Assembly (NCBI GenBank): GCA_030583865.1
Contig: CP129479.1
Location: 2,566,819-2,630,818, forward strand
DNA: 64,000 bases
From: Thermodesulfobacteriota bacterium
GTDB taxonomy: Bacteria > Desulfobacterota > GWC2-55-46
Direction of reading: 5' to 3'
A program made the translations under genes and the position numbers. Shown one piece after another: positions 6,980 through 15,648 of the stretch; the first letter of the stretch is position 1; every line of letters starts with the position of its first letter. Below the pieces are notes generated by a model, which was not told the origin of the DNA, did no database searches, and was given only the letters and a program-made list of their open reading frames with translations.

Positions 6980-9900
6980 CTATCTTTCCACCTTCACCGT
7001 TACCTTGGCGCTCTTCGAAGTCGCGCCGTAGTCGTCCTTGATATTGTAGTAGAAGTAGTCAAAGCCGGTGAAGCCTGCCGCCGGGGTGAACGTCACTGTG
7101 CCGTCCGTGTTATTTACGACCGTGCCGCCCCGGCCTGGCCTGCTGAGGACAATAACGCTCTCCCTGATGATAATGCCGTCGATGTCGTAGTCGTTTGCGG
7201 CAACGTCTATCAGTATCGGAGTGTTGATCCTGGTGGTCGCATAATCCACGACCGCTACGGGGGGCTTGTTCGATTTGACGCTGACCGTGACCCTCGTCGT
7301 GTTGCTCAAGTCCATGCCATCCGTAGCCTTGTAGTAAAACCTGTCGCTTCCGCTGAAGCCGGGATTCGGCGTAAATGTCACGGTGTTGTCCGGGTTTATC
7401 GTAGCAGTGCCGTTTGGCGGCGTGATGGTTATGGCCGCCACGCTAAGCGGGTCGCCGTCCGCGTCAATATCGTTTGCGAGCACAGGTATGACTACGGGCG
7501 TATTGAAGTTGGTCGTCGCGCTGTCCTGGTAGCCGACCGGCGCGGTATTGGATGCCCTGGCAACGCTTATACTCACGGTCGCGGAGTTGCTCTCCACGCC
7601 TCCGGAGAGGGCTTTATAGGTGAAAGTGTCAATGCCATAATAGCCTGTCGCAGGAGAATAGACGAACGAGCCGTCGGAATTGAGGGTAAGGCTTCCGTTC
7701 GCCGCGCCAGTGACAAGCTGGGCAGTAAGCACCCCTTCGCCGGAGTCATTTCCGAGTACGCCAGGGGCAGCCACCTGAAGGGGCGTATCTTCGATTGTTG
7801 AGTAGGTGTCGTCTACCGCTTCGGGCCTACCCTGCACCGTTATCGTAACTGTCGCGGTATCGCTCTCAGCATCGCCTAAGACGGCCTTATAGGTGAACGA
7901 ATCAACGCCTGAATAGCCAAATCCCGGAGTATAGGAAAATGAGCCGTCTGGATTGAGGGTGAGACTTCCGCTGGTTGTGCCAGTGACAAGCTGGGCAGTA
8001 AGCACCCCTTCGCCGGAGTCATTTCCGAGTACGCCAGGGGCAGCCACCTGCAGGGGCGTACCCTCCAGAGTGGAGTAGGTGTCGTCTATCGCCTCCGGCC
8101 TGTTTTGCACTGTTATCGTAACTGTCGCTGAATCGCTCTCCGCACCCCCCGAAACTGCCTTATAGGTGAAAGTGTCGAAACCCGAATAGCCATCCATAGG
8201 CGAATAGGTAAACGAGCCGTCGGAATTCAAGCTGAGGCTTCCTCTTGACGGGCCGGTTACGAGCTGGGCAGTAAGCTCCCCCTCGCCCGAGTCATTTCCG
8301 AGTACGCCCGGTGCAGCCACCTGAAGGGGCGTATCTTCCAAGGTGGAGTAGGTGTCGTCTACCGCCTCGGGCCTGTCCTGCACCGTTATCGTAACTGTCG
8401 CGCTATTGCTCTCAACCGCGCCGTCGTATGCCCTGTACGTAAAGCTGTCAATGCCCACAAAGCCCTCGGCAGGGGTATAAGTGACAGTCTGATCGGGGTT
8501 GATTCCAGCTGTCCCGTTCTGCGGAGCGGCAATGGAAGCCACCGTCAAGGCATCGCCATCGATATCCGAATCATTCGCAAGCACATTTATGACTACCGGC
8601 ATTCCCCTGAACGTGAAAGCCGAGTCGTCCGCCGCTAAAGGCGAGTCGTTCACGGGGTTTACGGTCAGGACCACTGCCGCGATATTGCTCTCGGAAAGCG
8701 CGGTGACCACCCTGTATGAGAACGAGTCCTGGCCGTTATAGTCGGGAAGGGGCTCGTACCTGAAAGAGCCGTCCGGTTCAAGCGTCACCGTGCCGTTTAC
8801 CGGGCCTGAGACAAGCTCGGCGCCGGGGCCGGAACCCTCCAGCGTATCGTTTCCCAGGACGCCCGGCGCTTCGACAACGAGGACGCTGTCCTCGTCCGTC
8901 GAATACGCGTCGTCATTGGCAATAAGCGCCTCGCCCCCCGAAACCGTCACGGTCACGGTGGCCGCGTTGCTCTCCGACCTGCCGTCATGGGCCGCGTAGG
9001 TAAAACTGTCAGTGCCGGTAAAGCCGGGGGCAGGCGTGTATGTCACGGTCTGGTCGGGGTTTAAGATGGCCGTGCCGTTACCGGGCGGCGAAAGGCCGCT
9101 TACCGTAAGCGCGTCCCCCTCGGGGTCAGTGTCGTTCGCGAGCACGTCGATTGCCACCGGTGTATCTTCTGCGGTCGCCGCGTAGTCATCGTAAGCCGAC
9201 GGCGGCTCGTTCACCTCGCCGGCAGCCGACTCGAACTCGAACGCCCCGCGGTCCCAGAAACCGTCCGCGCCGCGGGCAATGCCGGCCATGTCCGTGTCAT
9301 ACAGCTCCGGGAGGACGATGCCCGGTTCCGTCCCGGAGGTGAGGCGGAAATCGCCGCTGGCGAAATCGATAAACGGGTCCCCCTCCCCGACCTGCATGGC
9401 GCTCTCGAATATCGAGCCCTCGTTCGAGTTCATGAACCAGTTGTAGTTATGCTCGACACCAGGGCCGAACGATGTAGCCGGGCTGTTGTACCAGAGATTA
9501 TTGTAGGCCTTTACGTTCCCGATCTCGTTATAGATGGGGAATATCTTGCCGGCCCCGCCCTCGACAAGGTCCACGAATGTATTGTTGTATACGTTCACAT
9601 TCCGCGCGTAATAGTCGGCGGACGAGGAGAGGCTCCCTATGGCCCCGTTCATGGACCTCCTGCCCCAGTTTTCGGTCCAGATAAAGATATTTCCGTATAT
9701 GTCCCAGTTCTCGCCCCTGCTTATTATTATGCCGCCGGTGCTAACGAAATCCGCTATCACGCTGTTCCGCAGGATAACGTTATTGGCGTCGCGCGCTATC
9801 CAGACCTCCGAGTGCTGTGTCGAGGACACGCCGTTCCTCTCGAGCATGGAGTTCTCGATCAGCACGCCGGAGGTGGAGCTGAATGTGAGGAGTATGACCC

Positions 9901-10513
9901 TGCCGGCGTGGTGCATGTAGCAGTTTCGGAAGGTCCAGTCCGAGCCGCCGCTCAGACTGTAGAAGATATCCTGGCCCGAGCACGTTGTGCACGTGTTGAA
10001 GTACATCTCGACGTGCTTGAAGACGAGGTTCGATACCCTTTCAGATATCCTTATGAGCTTTATCTGGTCGGAAGTGCCCGAATGCCGCACCTTGATCCCG
10101 TGCCCCTCCTTCCAGCTCCCTGGCCCTCCTCCTACCTGCCCGTCTATTTCGTAATACCCTGCCTTGAAGGTCAAAGTGGCCTCAAAGTCGGCGCTCCCCT
10201 CTCCGAGGTAGTCCTCCCAGCCGGTGTCTGTGCCGTGGTCTTCAGGTATGGCCTTTTTTATGTATATGAAATTGAGTGCGGGGTCCTCGGGCATGGGGTC
10301 GTCGAAGGTGTAGCCCGGGTACTCTCCGGAGGCGATATAATATGTACTCCCGCGGAGAAGCTCCGCGGGAAGGCTCCTGAACGCGTTTGTCCAATCGCTG
10401 CCCGAATTGTCTCCCTGGGCGTCGGCGCGGACATAAAAAATATCGGCAAAGGACTTGCCCGGGAAGGCAAGGACCATAAGGAGCAGCACCGCAAATAAAG
10501 CCGTCCTCTTCAT
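6980..10513 (-). CDS. Secreted beta-helix protein with eight cadherin-like/Big tandem repeats
   Basis: The frame opens at 10645, but the ATG at 10513 has a GAGGTGG ribosome site and is followed at once by a signal peptide (residues 1-23, cut after SFA), giving 1177 residues. Residues 24-430 resemble a right-handed parallel beta-helix (repeated N-rich turns such as NVNVYNNTFVD and NVKAYNNLWYN). From about 433 to the end come eight repeats of some 90 residues, each starting with a xDDxYST.ED...VLGND or VLANDxDxDGD motif and ending FTYKAxxGxxESNSATVTITV, as in VCBS/cadherin-like domains, which often bind calcium. Repeats 4 to 6 are nearly identical. No sorting signal or barrel is visible at the C-terminus. 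A role as adhesin or surface polysaccharide-binding protein is inference. Confidence 0.85.
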   Translation of the reverse strand: MKRTALFAVLLLMVLAFPGKSFADIFYVRADAQGDNSGSDWTNAFRSLPAELLRGSTYYIASGEYPGYTFDDPMPEDPALNFIYIKKAIPEDHGTDTGWEDYLGEGSADFEATLTFKAGYYEIDGQVGGGPGSWKEGHGIKVRHSGTSDQIKLIRISERVSNLVFKHVEMYFNTCTTCSGQDIFYSLSGGSDWTFRNCYMHHAGRVILLTFSSTSGVLIENSMLERNGVSSTQHSEVWIARDANNVILRNSVIADFVSTGGIIISRGENWDIYGNIFIWTENWGRRSMNGAIGSLSSSADYYARNVNVYNNTFVDLVEGGAGKIFPIYNEIGNVKAYNNLWYNSPATSFGPGVEHNYNWFMNSNEGSIFESAMQVGEGDPFIDFASGDFRLTSGTEPGIVLPELYDTDMAGIARGADGFWDRGAFEFESAAGEVNEPPSAYDDYAATAEDTPVAIDVLANDTDPEGDALTVSGLSPPGNGTAILNPDQTVTYTPAPGFTGTDSFTYAAHDGRSESNAATVTVTVSGGEALIANDDAYSTDEDSVLVVEAPGVLGNDTLEGSGPGAELVSGPVNGTVTLEPDGSFRYEPLPDYNGQDSFSYRVVTALSESNIAAVVLTVNPVNDSPLAADDSAFTFRGMPVVINVLANDSDIDGDALTVASIAAPQNGTAGINPDQTVTYTPAEGFVGIDSFTYRAYDGAVESNSATVTITVQDRPEAVDDTYSTLEDTPLQVAAPGVLGNDSGEGELTAQLVTGPSRGSLSLNSDGSFTYSPMDGYSGFDTFTYKAVSGGAESDSATVTITVQNRPEAIDDTYSTLEGTPLQVAAPGVLGNDSGEGVLTAQLVTGTTSGSLTLNPDGSFSYTPGFGYSGVDSFTYKAVLGDAESDTATVTITVQGRPEAVDDTYSTIEDTPLQVAAPGVLGNDSGEGVLTAQLVTGAANGSLTLNSDGSFVYSPATGYYGIDTFTYKALSGGVESNSATVSISVARASNTAPVGYQDSATTNFNTPVVIPVLANDIDADGDPLSVAAITITPPNGTATINPDNTVTFTPNPGFSGSDRFYYKATDGMDLSNTTRVTVSVKSNKPPVAVVDYATTRINTPILIDVAANDYDIDGIIIRESVIVLSRPGRGGTVVNNTDGTVTFTPAAGFTGFDYFYYNIKDDYGATSKSAKVTVKVER
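7560..8390 (-). repeat. Near-identical 273-bp tandem units inside the surface-protein gene
   Basis: Three successive coding units show long identical stretches at a regular 273-base offset; for example the same 80-base block starts near 7708 and 7981 and again, with a few changes, near 8263. The period is exactly 91 codons, so gain or loss of units keeps the reading frame. Confidence 0.85.
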
Positions 10514-10669
10514 GTCCACCTCGCTGGTTTCGACGCAAAAGGGGCCCGGAAGCCAGTCAGCTCTTATAAATCGAATTTTGATGCGAAAGGGTAAAAACGG
10601 CCCGGCGACTGTCTCATTTAAAGAGGCAGGCGGGTTCGGAGGCAAAGCCGAAAAGTGTATTAAGGAGAA

Positions 10670-10757: not shown

Positions 10758-11180
10758 TTATCCGAGCGAGGCGAGCAGGTTCTTGAAATGTATGGCGGCG
10801 GCGGTGTCGCCGGTTATCTCGAGCTTCCTTGAGAAGAAGACCGTGTCCGGGTCTTCCTTGCCGAGTAGCACTTCCATCAGGACGCTCGCGCTACCGCTCA
10901 TGGTAACATCGGGCACGCGCGTGGAATGCGGCACCACCTTTACGTCCCTGTCCTTTACGTGGAGGAAAAACTTCTTTTCCACGTCCCGGGCCTCGAAGAG
11001 GAAGAGCTTGTCGTCGATCTCGCCGAGCCTTTCACGGAGCGCGGGGTTTTTGTCCAGCACCGTCGATATGAACACGCCCATGCCTATGGCCTCCATCCAG
11101 AGGGGCATCGCCTTTAGCGGCAGGCGGAGGCCCTTGTAGAGCCCTTCTCTCAGCTTCTTTTTCGCCTCTTCCTTTTCCAT
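10758..11180 (-). CDS. ubiT: SCP2 lipid-binding protein, UbiT-like
   Basis: The 140-residue product is a compact SCP2 (sterol-carrier) domain, which binds lipids in a hydrophobic tunnel. The C-terminal stretch FFSRKLEITGDTAAAIHFKNLL follows the pattern conserved in UbiT (YhbT), the SCP2 protein that E. coli needs for oxygen-independent ubiquinone synthesis. A ribosome site (GGAAGG) precedes the ATG. It is the last gene of a minus-strand run with UbiE, UbiB and a UbiV-like protein, which strongly supports a quinone-related job. A generic SCP2 carrier remains possible because the domain is small and common. Confidence 0.72.
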   Translation of the reverse strand: MEKEEAKKKLREGLYKGLRLPLKAMPLWMEAIGMGVFISTVLDKNPALRERLGEIDDKLFLFEARDVEKKFFLHVKDRDVKVVPHSTRVPDVTMSGSASVLMEVLLGKEDPDTVFFSRKLEITGDTAAAIHFKNLLASLG

Positions 11181-11231
11181 GCGCCTTCCCAGACAAAAAA
11201 ATCAAAATCCGAAAACCGTCTATCAGAATCA

Positions 11232-11304
11232 CTCGACTTGAATAGTCTTCGCAATTCGGCAATCCATCCGTGGATTGCTTGGCGGGATGTTTTTCAACAC
11301 CCTG
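11232..11304. repeat. Dispersed repeat family D, copy 1
   Basis: About 73 bases running from CTCGACTTG, through AATAGTCTTCGCAAT and the palindrome CAATCCATCCGTGGATTG, to GTTTTTCAACACC are shared with 45018-45091. This copy abuts the stop codon of ubiE. Confidence 0.75.
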
Positions 11305-12051
11305 CTAAACCTTCACGCCCACGTGCACGGCTGCTATGCCGTTAAGGAGGTTGTGGTACTTTACCTTCCAGAGCCCGGCATCCTGCATCATCTTCTTAAG
11401 CTCCTCCTGCGGCGGGAACTTGCGGATGGACTCGGGCAGGTACTCGTAGGCGCTCCTGTTCCCGGTTATCATCTCGCCCACCGACGGGATGAACGAAAAG
11501 GAATAGAGGTCATAGGCCTTTCTGAGGAGCGCGCTCTCCGGGCGCGAGAACTCGAGGCATATGACCTTGCCGCCGGGCTTTACCACCCTGGTCATCTCAG
11601 AGAGGGCCCGGTCGAGGTGGGTCACGTTCCTTATGCCGAAGCCGACGGTAGCGCAGTGGAACGTATTGTCCTCAAAGGGTATCTCCTCGGCATTCCCCTG
11701 TGCGAAGCGGATGTTCGAGAGATAGCCCCTGTCGACGCACTTGTCGCGCCCGACCTTGAGCATCTCGCCGTTAATGTCGAAGACCACGACGCTCCCCTCG
11801 CTGCCCACCCTGTCCGCCATTAATAGCGCTATATCGGCCGTGCCTCCGGCCACGTCCAGGGCCGACTGACCGGGCCGCAACCCGGCCTCGGAGGCTACGA
11901 ACCTCTTCCAGAGCCTGTGGATGCCGAAGCTCATGAGGTCGTTCATGAGGTCGTATCTTTGGGCTACGGAGTCGAAGACCTCCCTTACCTTCTTCTCTTT
12001 TTCCGCTTCGGGGATGAGCTGGTTCCCGAAGTATGTCATCTTCTCCGTCAT
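11305..12051 (-). CDS. ubiE: UbiE/MenG demethylquinone C-methyltransferase
   Basis: UbiE adds a methyl group from S-adenosylmethionine to demethylmenaquinol or its ubiquinone counterpart, the last or near-last step of quinone synthesis. The ATG at 12051 (GGGTGG ribosome site) gives 248 residues, the usual size; the longer frame upstream overlaps the previous gene. Visible are the N-terminal VREVFDSVAQRYDLMNDLMSFG box, the SAM loop LDVAGGTADIALL, the family signature VGFGIRNVTHLDRALSEM and VVKPGGKVICLEFSRP. The gene starts 11 bases after the CGGC gene in the quinone operon. Confidence 0.95.
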   Translation of the reverse strand: MTEKMTYFGNQLIPEAEKEKKVREVFDSVAQRYDLMNDLMSFGIHRLWKRFVASEAGLRPGQSALDVAGGTADIALLMADRVGSEGSVVVFDINGEMLKVGRDKCVDRGYLSNIRFAQGNAEEIPFEDNTFHCATVGFGIRNVTHLDRALSEMTRVVKPGGKVICLEFSRPESALLRKAYDLYSFSFIPSVGEMITGNRSAYEYLPESIRKFPPQEELKKMMQDAGLWKVKYHNLLNGIAAVHVGVKV

Positions 12052-12062
12052 AAAACCACCCT

Positions 12063-12491
12063 TTAGAACTCGAACGGCTCGTATTTCCCGGAAGCCCTCC
12101 GCGAGGTCGCGGTCTTGCTCCCGTAGCTCCCTTTCCTGTACGCCACGCCTTTCCTGTCGAGGATTTTCTCTATGTACCCGAGATGCGGGCACGGCGGGTA
12201 ATGCCCGTTGTCCGTGATCATGCACGAGGAGAGGTGAAATACTATCTCGTCTTTTTCAACGCCCGCCTTTTTCATGGCCGATTTCACGAGGTGAGCGATC
12301 GTCCTCGGTATCCTCCTTCCGGGGCAGCCGCCGCAGTTGAAGGGAACGGCAATTACGGCGTCTTCGCCGGGATAATCCTTGAAGGCGTCCTTCCTTTTTG
12401 TGAAGGAATCGAGGCAGGCGAAGCCGCTGCAGCGCTCCTTCGCAAAATCGCACTGGATTATGGCAACGACCTTTGTCTTTCTATCTTCCAT
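12063..12491 (-). CDS. CGGC-domain (PF08821) small cysteine-rich protein
   Basis: The 142-residue protein carries the name-giving C53-G-G-C56 motif in FNCGGCPGRR, three earlier cysteines (C14, C21, C26) and a later SSCMITDNGHYPPCPH segment. This is the layout of the CGGC family, a predicted metal-binding fold of unknown function. Its start overlaps the end of ubiB by 11 bases and it is followed 11 bases later by ubiE, so translation is probably coupled. A redox or metal role linked to quinone synthesis is suggested only by this position. Confidence 0.82.
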   Translation of the reverse strand: MEDRKTKVVAIIQCDFAKERCSGFACLDSFTKRKDAFKDYPGEDAVIAVPFNCGGCPGRRIPRTIAHLVKSAMKKAGVEKDEIVFHLSSCMITDNGHYPPCPHLGYIEKILDRKGVAYRKGSYGSKTATSRRASGKYEPFEF

Positions 12492-14151
12492 TGACCTTGC
12501 CCCTCCGGAAAAGCCTGTATCCCATTATAGCGCCCGCCGCATAACCCGCCCCGCTCAGAAGCGGCAGTCCCAGGAAGGTCAAGCCGTCCTTTGAAAAGAC
12601 CGCCACGAGCGAGGCGCCTATAAAGAGCGCGGCCACCACGAGCCCGCCTCCTATCCTCCTGCCGGCCCTCTCAAGCTCCCCTGTGACCTCCTCGAGCCTG
12701 TGGTGCACGAAGCCTATCCGGAGGTCCTCCCGGAGCGCCCTCCGAAGGAGAGTATTGAAGTTTACCGGCAGGTCGAACGCGGTATCCAGAATATCTTCCG
12801 CCCGCTCGCGCCCCTTCTCCACGAACCTTCCCGGCGAAAGCTTCTCCCTCGCCATCCACCTGTAGATGAGGGGCTTTGCCACCTCCCACATGTTGACGTC
12901 AGGGTATAGCTGCCTTCCTACCCCCTCTATGATCACCATCGATTTCTGGAGCAGGAGCAGATTGGGCTGGAGCTTCATGTTGAAGCGCTTCGCGGTCTGT
13001 ATGAGCTTCATGAGGAGCCCCGAGATGTCTATCTGCTCGAGCGTCCTCCCGAATATGGGCTCGGATATGTCCCGGAGCGCGTCCTCGAAGTCCGAGAGGC
13101 TTACGTCGTCGGATATGAGCCCCATATCCCTGTGGACAACGGCCATCCTGTAATAGTCGGCACGGACAAGGTGGTAGAGCATGCTCGCGAGATAGTTCCG
13201 GAGGTCCCGGTCTATCCTCCCCACGATGCCGAAATCGAGATAGATGATGGCGCCGTCGTCCCTTACGAAGATATTCCCCGGGTGAAGGTCCGCGTGGAAT
13301 ACGCCGTGGTCGAACACCTGCTTGAAGAATATGGTGAGGCCCCTTGTCGCGACCTCCTTTACATCAAGCCCCCTGGCCTTGAGCGCCTCAACCTCGTCGA
13401 TGGGAGTGCCGTATATGCGCTCCATCGTAAGGATGTCCTCGTTCGAGTAGTCCCAGAAGACGCGCGGTATCTGTATGGAGGGCTCGTTCTTGAACATCTC
13501 CGAGAACCGGTTCATGTTCACGCCCTCGGCCGCGAGGTTCTGCTCGTTCCTTACGACCCTCTCGAACTCGGCGACCACGTCGTGCGGCCTGTAGCGGCGG
13601 GCCGCCGGCACGTACCTGTCAAGGAGCCCCGCAATGGTGTGCATGACCGAGAGGTCGGACTCGATGACGTGCTCTATGCCGGGCCTCTTCACCTTGACCG
13701 CTACCTTTGTCCCGTCAAAGAGCTCGGCGTAATGTACCTGGGCTATCGAGGCCGAGGCGACCGGGATTGGGTCGAAGGAGGCGAACTTCGAGCCTATAGG
13801 GGCCTTGAGCGCGCCCTCGACCGCCTTCCTGACCTCCTCGTACGGCACGGGCGGCACCATATCCTGGAGCTTCTTCATCTCCTCGACCCACTCGGGCGGC
13901 AGGAGGTCTGCCCTTGTCGAGGCTATCTGCCCGAGCTTTATGAAGGTCGGGCCGAGCTCTTCCAGAACAAGCCGTATCCTTACCGGGGCGCTTAAATTCT
14001 GCGCCTTTTTAGAGATGAAGATCCGCTCTATGGCCGGGATGAACGGCGGCAGCACCCGGAGCTCCCTCGCGAGGGAGCCGAAGCCGTACCTGATGAGCGT
14101 GACCACTATCCGGTTGAGCCTGCTTAGGTTCCTGTATGCGCTCTTCGCCAT
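12481..14151 (-). CDS. ubiB: UbiB/ABC1-family atypical kinase-like protein
   Basis: UbiB proteins are membrane-associated ATPases thought to help extract or present lipid quinone intermediates. The 556-residue protein shows the family KxGQ motif (KLGQIASTR), the alanine-rich loop PVASASIAQVHYA, VAVKVKRPG, FHADLHPGNIFV and YLDFGIVGR. The last 60 residues contain two hydrophobic segments that anchor it in the membrane. It starts nine bases after the small phasin/UbiK-like gene. The same family also acts in other isoprenoid-lipid processes, so the symbol rests partly on the neighbours ubiE and ubiV. Confidence 0.92.
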   Translation of the reverse strand: MAKSAYRNLSRLNRIVVTLIRYGFGSLARELRVLPPFIPAIERIFISKKAQNLSAPVRIRLVLEELGPTFIKLGQIASTRADLLPPEWVEEMKKLQDMVPPVPYEEVRKAVEGALKAPIGSKFASFDPIPVASASIAQVHYAELFDGTKVAVKVKRPGIEHVIESDLSVMHTIAGLLDRYVPAARRYRPHDVVAEFERVVRNEQNLAAEGVNMNRFSEMFKNEPSIQIPRVFWDYSNEDILTMERIYGTPIDEVEALKARGLDVKEVATRGLTIFFKQVFDHGVFHADLHPGNIFVRDDGAIIYLDFGIVGRIDRDLRNYLASMLYHLVRADYYRMAVVHRDMGLISDDVSLSDFEDALRDISEPIFGRTLEQIDISGLLMKLIQTAKRFNMKLQPNLLLLQKSMVIIEGVGRQLYPDVNMWEVAKPLIYRWMAREKLSPGRFVEKGRERAEDILDTAFDLPVNFNTLLRRALREDLRIGFVHHRLEEVTGELERAGRRIGGGLVVAALFIGASLVAVFSKDGLTFLGLPLLSGAGYAAGAIMGYRLFRRGKVNGR

Positions 14152-14160
14152 CCGTGCTGA

Positions 14161-14562
14161 TTACATGCCTTCCTTGAACTCGTTCCTCTCAAGCCTTGCC
14201 TCCAGGTCCGACACCCTTTTTTCGAGCTTGTCCACCTTCTCCCTTGCAAGCCTGGCCATCTCCTTTACGACCTCAAGCTCGTCCTGTGTGGCAACGTTCA
14301 ACTTCTCGAATACCTTCCCCGAAGAGGACGTAACCTCCTTCTCAAGCTTCTCCTTCGCGGAGCTCACGACCGAAAGGAACTCCTTGAGCGCCCTCACCCC
14401 TTCGTCAACGACCCTGTTCTCGACAGCCTCCCTGGGCGGAAGCCCCTCGCCGGATGCATCCTTCGAGCCCTTCCCGGATTTCTCAAGCTCTTCAAGAACC
14501 TCCCTGGCCTTCCTTTCAAGGCCCATGCCTATGAGTATCGCCTTATCAAGCAGGTCCGCCAT
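14161..14562 (-). CDS. Phasin/UbiK-like coiled-coil accessory protein
   Basis: The ATG at 14562 (AAGGTGGAG ribosome site) gives 133 residues; the longer upstream frame runs into a dispersed repeat. The N-terminal part is charged and helical. The end, from FEKLNVATQDELEVVKEMA to LEKRVSDLEARL, has the shape of the BMFP/YqiC (UbiK) domain and also of polyhydroxyalkanoate granule-associated phasin-like proteins. UbiK is an assembly factor of the aerobic ubiquinone complex and binds lipids. With ubiB next door, a scaffold role in quinone synthesis is plausible, but phasin-type annotation is the safer family call. Confidence 0.65.
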   Translation of the reverse strand: MADLLDKAILIGMGLERKAREVLEELEKSGKGSKDASGEGLPPREAVENRVVDEGVRALKEFLSVVSSAKEKLEKEVTSSSGKVFEKLNVATQDELEVVKEMARLAREKVDKLEKRVSDLEARLERNEFKEGM

Positions 14563-14649
14563 GCTCCACCTTCCCTTCCACGGCCCATTGGCCGCATTAG
14601 ATGCTTCCCCACAGTATTTAAAACCTTGCTGAAAAACTCCGCTTTTATT

Positions 14650-14771
14650 CAGGCTGCTCAAAAAGCTCCATATGCTAGGCGTCGAGGAGCGAGGAATGAG
14701 GCGTACTTTCGTGTACGCCGGAGTGTCAAGCGACGTAGCCTTCGACGCAGATGGACTTTTTCAGCAGCCTG
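14650..14771. repeat. Dispersed repeat family A, copy 1
   Basis: The element is bounded by inverted ends (CAGGCTGCTCAAAAAGCTC and GGACTTTTTCAGCAGCCTG) and has an internal GGCGTAC...GTACGCC dyad. It lies between ubiV and the phasin-like gene, and its right end supplies the last three codons (Ala-Gly-Cys) and stop of ubiV. Confidence 0.9.
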
Positions 14772-15648
14772 CTAAATAGTCTTTGCCCGCGCCTCCGAGA
14801 TACCAGCCGTTTGTGAACTCTCCTTTTGTTATCGCCTTTAGCTCCCTGAGCCCTTCCGAGGGGCCGAGGGTGCCGTTCATGCGGGCCCTGAAGACCTCGA
14901 TTATCCTGGCCGTGTCCCTGTATTGCGGCGATATCCTTAAAGCGGAAACGCCTATCTCTTTAAGGTCCTCGACATATTCCACGAGCGTGTGCGTGGCTGC
15001 GCTCAGTATCGAGGTGCCGTTTATGGAGAATAGCGGCCCGTTGTCTATGGTCTTAAGCTCCATGCCGTCCGGGTACTTGAGGCAATCGTGCCTGCATTCG
15101 GCCCTGGAAAGGCCGAATGCCCTTGAGGTGTAGCACCGCCAGGAGAAGGCAAGTGGCGCCTTCCCGTGCGCGAAGACCTCGCCCGCTATCCCGGTCTTCT
15201 CTATGCAGTGCCTTATTGATTCCCTTGATAGCTCGACGGGGAACACCACCCGCTTGACGCCTATGGATTTAAGGAAATCTATGGTCGGCGCGTTATAGGA
15301 GGTGATATGGGGCCCGGCAATGATTTCCCTTTCCCGCGGGTCGGCCATGTTGAAGACCGACATGTCGTTAGCCTCCAAGGGGACCTGGAAATCAAACAGG
15401 CTCCGGGCCGTTTGAAGCTCCTCGTCGTTCGAGATGACGGCAAGGGTCGAGAGGGCGACCTTTTTCCCGGAATCCTGAAGGAGTTTTACTATGCCCTCCA
15501 TATTGTCACGGGAGAGGCCGAGCTTCCTGGAGCAGACCACCTCGCCGACATAGACCCTGTCCACGTCCGTCTTCGAGACTTCCCTGTAGAAACCCAATAC
15601 CTCTTCGCGGGGCCAATCGAAGAGGACCGGGCCAAGCGTAAGCTCCAT
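14761..15648 (-). CDS. ubiV: UbiV-like U32 protein, oxygen-independent quinone hydroxylation
   Basis: UbiV, with UbiU, carries out hydroxylations of ubiquinone precursors without oxygen. The 295-residue protein begins LGPVLFDWPREE, like the UbiV start, and has C39, C172, C185 and C189; the C-x12-C-x3-C spacing and the position of the first cysteine match the four cysteines that hold the [4Fe-4S] cluster in E. coli UbiV. Further family motifs are GEVVCSRK, GKKVALSTLAV, VVFPVELSRE and LSPQYRDT. No ubiU is seen in the window. The stop codon lies within a dispersed repeat, so the original C-terminus may have been slightly different. Confidence 0.88.
   Translation of the reverse strand: MELTLGPVLFDWPREEVLGFYREVSKTDVDRVYVGEVVCSRKLGLSRDNMEGIVKLLQDSGKKVALSTLAVISNDEELQTARSLFDFQVPLEANDMSVFNMADPREREIIAGPHITSYNAPTIDFLKSIGVKRVVFPVELSRESIRHCIEKTGIAGEVFAHGKAPLAFSWRCYTSRAFGLSRAECRHDCLKYPDGMELKTIDNGPLFSINGTSILSAATHTLVEYVEDLKEIGVSALRISPQYRDTARIIEVFRARMNGTLGPSEGLRELKAITKGEFTNGWYLGGAGKDYLAGC

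Follow-up and report, generated by a model that had tools for sequence, protein, structure and literature searches.

The six minus-strand open reading frames at 10758-15648 of the window (the whole stretch of 64,000 nucleotides analyzed here) very probably form a ubiV-ubiK-ubiB-(CGGC)-ubiE-ubiT operon, carried by an uncultured deltaproteobacterial lineage that makes ubiquinone by an oxygen-independent route only and that, judged by locus structure, gene set and lack of menaquinone genes, is most likely of Desulfobacterota class GWC2-55-46. The operon order has already been published and tested in E. coli (PMC13386864, 2026), and only the CGGC gene is undescribed. The gene set, its order, the cluster ligands and the lack of rival pathways were computed here and the function of the orthologues was taken from the literature; we infer that the organism actually makes ubiquinone. 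All six open reading frames, which the first-pass annotation had read as a quinone gene run, were found in place and on the expected strand. Gene families were assigned with Pfam gathering scores and NCBIfam equivalog cut-offs, as follows.

14761..15648, minus strand: ubiV, U32-family protein (PF01136), half of the O2-independent hydroxylase UbiU-UbiV; NCBIfam quinone_UbiV NF047965, 287.4 bits (cut-off 275)
14161..14562, minus strand: ubiK-like gene, BMFP coiled-coil accessory factor, with the ATG at 14562 as start; PF04380, 46.1 bits (cut-off 37.2)
12481..14151, minus strand: ubiB, ABC1/ADCK-type atypical kinase/ATPase accessory factor; NCBIfam TIGR01982, 522 bits (cut-off 488)
12063..12491, minus strand: CGGC-domain protein, Cys/His-rich, an optional insertion; PF08821, 79.2 bits (cut-off 27)
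11305..12051, minus strand: ubiE C-methyltransferase, with the ATG at 12051 as start; PF01209, 308 bits, and TIGR01934, 277 bits (cut-off 158)
10758..11180, minus strand: ubiT, SCP2-domain lipid-binding accessory factor; NF047962, 78.5 bits (cut-off 46.9), and SCP2 domain PF02036, 73.6 bits

The two matches of the last protein bear out its earlier reading as UbiT-like with an SCP2 domain. The UbiK-like protein falls under the NCBIfam UbiK equivalog cut-off (25 bits vs 100). The ubiB and CGGC genes share 11 bases, and 11 bases separate the end of the CGGC gene from the ubiE start, which makes coupled ubiB/CGGC/ubiE starts a fair description. Upstream of the operon are truA and a gene that reads, by eye, as aspartate-semialdehyde dehydrogenase.

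Identification of the U32 protein as UbiV rests on three lines of evidence. Besides exceeding the UbiV equivalog cut-off, the protein carries the four-cysteine cluster motif CXnCX12CX3C with the CX12CX3C spacing of E. coli UbiV. Its residues C39, C172, C185 and C189, singled out at first reading for their UbiV spacing, aligned to E. coli C39, C180, C193 and C197 and were kept in 19/19 aligned sequences; the E. coli residues were shown to be cluster ligands by mutation (mBio 2019, PMC6747719). In a U32 tree with E. coli UbiU, UbiV, TrhP and RlhA as references, the window protein grouped with UbiV (support 100/100), apart from the other three, and the grouping with a non-UbiV family that would have spoken against the annotation did not occur. 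Because the tree tool flagged long E. coli branches, we give the model score and the ligands as much weight as the tree. A tRNA/rRNA hydroxylase or peptidase-like protein with coincidental neighbors would fit the membership of TrhP and RlhA in the U32 family and a weak match of the window protein to the TrhP model (33 bits), but a score above the UbiV cut-off, the full ligand set and a place in the E. coli UbiV clade make this reading exceedingly improbable.

The remainder of the pathway was sought across the genome, which is assembled as one contig (2,751,635 bases) and rated 100% complete. UbiU was reported missing at first reading, which is true within the window and untrue of the genome: ubiU lies on the same chromosome as the ubiV operon (G000:620458-621441, 449 bits vs cut-off 440). 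At about 43.8-48.7 kb is a second locus, with a gene for a divergent chorismate lyase (ubiC-like), ubiA (307 bits vs cut-off 275), ubiD and ubiG (237 bits vs cut-off 103), with one extra gene separating ubiD and ubiG, and ubiX is found at 13.0-13.6 kb, above its cut-off. For UbiA, G, E, B, D and X, one or more NCBIfam models score above cut-off. The chorismate lyase (L116:7055-7690, minus strand, the ubiC position in the window genome) scores 20 bits on PF04345, below the cut-off, and 48 bits on PF01947 (Rv2949c-like), above it; the gene thus escapes detection when only the UbiC model is used.

Models for rival routes gave nothing above cut-off in the window genome and 29 relatives. Across these 30 genomes there were zero matches to PF02621 (MqnA/MqnD of the futalosine menaquinone pathway), and neither MenD (best match in the window genome 61 bits vs 244) nor the flavin ubiquinone hydroxylases UbiH/I/F (best 25 bits vs 225) reached the cut-off. 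The 61-bit MenD match is at a level that other ThDP enzymes would give. A ubiquinone gene set together with no rival-pathway model above cut-off (futalosine, MenD, flavin hydroxylases) argues that the genome encodes a complete oxygen-independent ubiquinone route and no other, as predicted from sequence. The genome-wide search proposed in the first-pass annotation turned up ubiU, ubiA, ubiG and a ubiC-like gene with no mqn or MenD gene above cut-off, and not a genome with only menaquinone genes and no ubiU. Oxygen-independent ubiquinone synthesis, the main inference of that annotation, finds support in ubiU and the other ubiquinone genes, in the lack of a menaquinone or flavin-hydroxylase route and in the published tests in E. 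coli.

In the pathway that we propose, UbiC, UbiA and UbiD/UbiX would build the prenylated 4-hydroxybenzoate ring and remove its carboxyl group. Hydroxylation of the ring would fall to UbiV together with UbiU, whose gene lies at a distant chromosomal site, and would draw on two [4Fe-4S] clusters and a source of oxygen that is not O2. UbiG and UbiE would methylate the ring, UbiT would hold the lipid intermediates, UbiB and UbiK would act as assisting factors and the CGGC gene would be a lineage-specific insertion into the operon, dispensable for the pathway. Labelling with 18O2 showed that UbiUV takes its oxygen from a donor other than O2 (PMC10470549); prephenate is one candidate, still at the proposal stage. 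The product might instead be methyl-plastoquinone (the mPQ quinone of Nitrospirota) or another benzoquinone. The UbiE protein does score 303 bits on the MpqE model, and mPQ enzymes were grouped with those of GWC2-55-46 (PMC13386864), but the MpqE score lies under the cut-off of 335 and is lower than those of the best UbiE models. The genome also has, above its cut-off, UbiG, the enzyme that supplies the methoxy groups of ubiquinone by O-methylation, and E. coli mutants regained ubiquinone when given the published orthologues (PMC13386864). We thus regard a product other than ubiquinone as very unlikely.

The closest published counterparts of the ubiquinone operon are the conserved ubiVKBET and ubiCADG loci described in mSystems in 2026 in nine MAGs of Desulfobacterota class GWC2-55-46, which lack menaquinone genes; in E. 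coli mutants, every gene tested except ubiK raised ubiquinone (PMC13386864). The window genome shares with them the V-K-B-E-T order, the companions A, C, D, G, X and U, the lack of a menaquinone pathway and the exclusively O2-independent route. Unlike them, it carries the CGGC gene between ubiB and ubiE and the extra gene between ubiD and ubiG. The same study reported rquA in one of the genomes, whereas the best RquA match in the window genome is far from the cut-off (45 bits vs 175); the window genome is therefore probably not the one that supplied the genes for the published complementation. The UbiV cysteine motif, the UbiT SCP2 domain and the UbiU partner are common to the window genome and to ubiTUV of E. 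coli and other Pseudomonadota (mBio 2019, PMC6747719). E. coli differs in also having, according to the literature, O2-dependent hydroxylases and menaquinone, and its ubiU and ubiV are adjacent, whereas in the window genome they are distant (620 kb vs 2582 kb). In Magnetococcia (ISME J 2024, PMC11707229), a quinone locus likewise groups UbiT, UbiE and UbiB (ubiETB), but these organisms belong to phylum Pseudomonadota and, judged by the published description, have another arrangement.

Among bacteria, ubiquinone had been regarded as restricted to Pseudomonadota, and a pathway in a second phylum that works only without oxygen is relevant to whether ubiquinone predates oxygen-dependent synthesis. 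This point has already been made in print, with experiments, and what remains novel here is the optional CGGC gene, a small question. The window contributes a complete genome in one contig and a wider survey, in which UbiV was above cut-off in 45/59 genomes of the class and some match was found in 57/59, several of the 59 being fragmented and some of the weak matches being the UbiU paralogue only. Among related loci that we mapped, the order V-K-B-E-T was kept in 20/20, far beyond chance, with a ubiK-like gene between ubiV and ubiB in each of them and ubiU directly upstream of ubiV in three (L056, L059 and L068). One 1.5 Mb genome of the same order (G019, 97% complete) had no UbiV, UbiU, UbiC, MqnA/D or MenD above cut-off; it may be a member of the order that has no quinone, or some of its contigs may be missing. 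RquA-like proteins of 137-168 bits (cut-off 175) were present in four genomes of two families (L109-L112), and the highest-scoring of them (L109, G002:C1:1063270-1063872, 168 bits) is from the same genus as the window genome.

The CGGC gene stands between ubiB and ubiE in 10/20 loci, all ten belonging to the family of the window genome. The other ten loci lack it, among them L053, also of that family, where ubiB and ubiE are direct neighbors. Because half of the complete loci are without it, the gene is not required, and it fits best as an operon passenger or an optional, lineage-specific accessory. The suggestion at first reading that the CGGC and UbiK-like proteins are unrecognised parts of the system is accordingly weakened for the former, and the latter had already been counted as ubiK in PMC13386864, though it did not complement. 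PF08821 is carried by 18/57 genomes. A scan of 84,980 species genomes returned 19 close relatives of the protein, one from a MAG titled Desulfuromonadales and the rest from 'Deltaproteobacteria bacterium' MAGs; of the 19, 14 were linked to ubi genes and five were unlinked. The linked copies have seven conserved Cys and three conserved His columns, which suggests that the protein may bind metal; the CGGC motif itself spans residues 53-56 in the window protein.

A genuine accessory of UbiUV restricted to this lineage, such as a protein that carries metal or electrons to the Fe-S hydroxylase, would also agree with these conserved columns, the overlap with ubiB, the retention of the gene at the ubiB-ubiE junction in ten family loci and the presence of UbiV in 5/5 genomes with an unlinked copy. 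As such an addition to the main explanation, the protein would be an unrecognised metal/redox partner of UbiUV, boosting or replacing a host factor in one family. We consider this role unlikely. Half of the complete loci lack the gene, as does same-family L053, only those 18/57 genomes carry the domain, and the pathway as published functions in E. coli without it; unlinked copies sit among unrelated genes (such as DNA polymerase III alpha-like and toxin-antitoxin-like ones, read by eye), and the joint occurrence with UbiV could simply reflect shared ancestry. An optional operon passenger or accessory remains our preferred reading. Sequence searches of the protein against the PDB gave zero matches, its AlphaFold model was of low confidence (mean pLDDT 61) and a fold search with this model gave no match with E <0.001. 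QueH came up in that search at a level too weak to use (E 0.16, TM 0.34). A full-text literature search for 'CGGC domain' returned no paper, and the word CGGC is absent from the main text of PMC13386864.

Two further features were observed around the operon. In several relatives, the gap between the CGGC gene and ubiE is 550-1000 bases long and holds one to four tandem small open reading frames on the opposite strand, of which none were found in the window. They lie at the following places.

L063:4777-5310, L093:6462-6995, L097:6619-6994, L099:6460-6749 and L052:4659-4766, opposite strand: small ORFs in the CGGC-ubiE gap

Each is about 27-57 codons long with one hydrophobic stretch, e.g. MTRIFETVASLAVIVTLVAVSAVNFVM, and diverged copies keep the frame, which suggests that they may be real small membrane peptides. 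Directly downstream of ubiT, an open reading frame of at most 1221 aa (window 6980-10645, minus strand) contains eight bacterial Ig/cadherin-like repeats, and this repeat-bearing frame is found 3' of ubiT in two genomes of the same genus as well.
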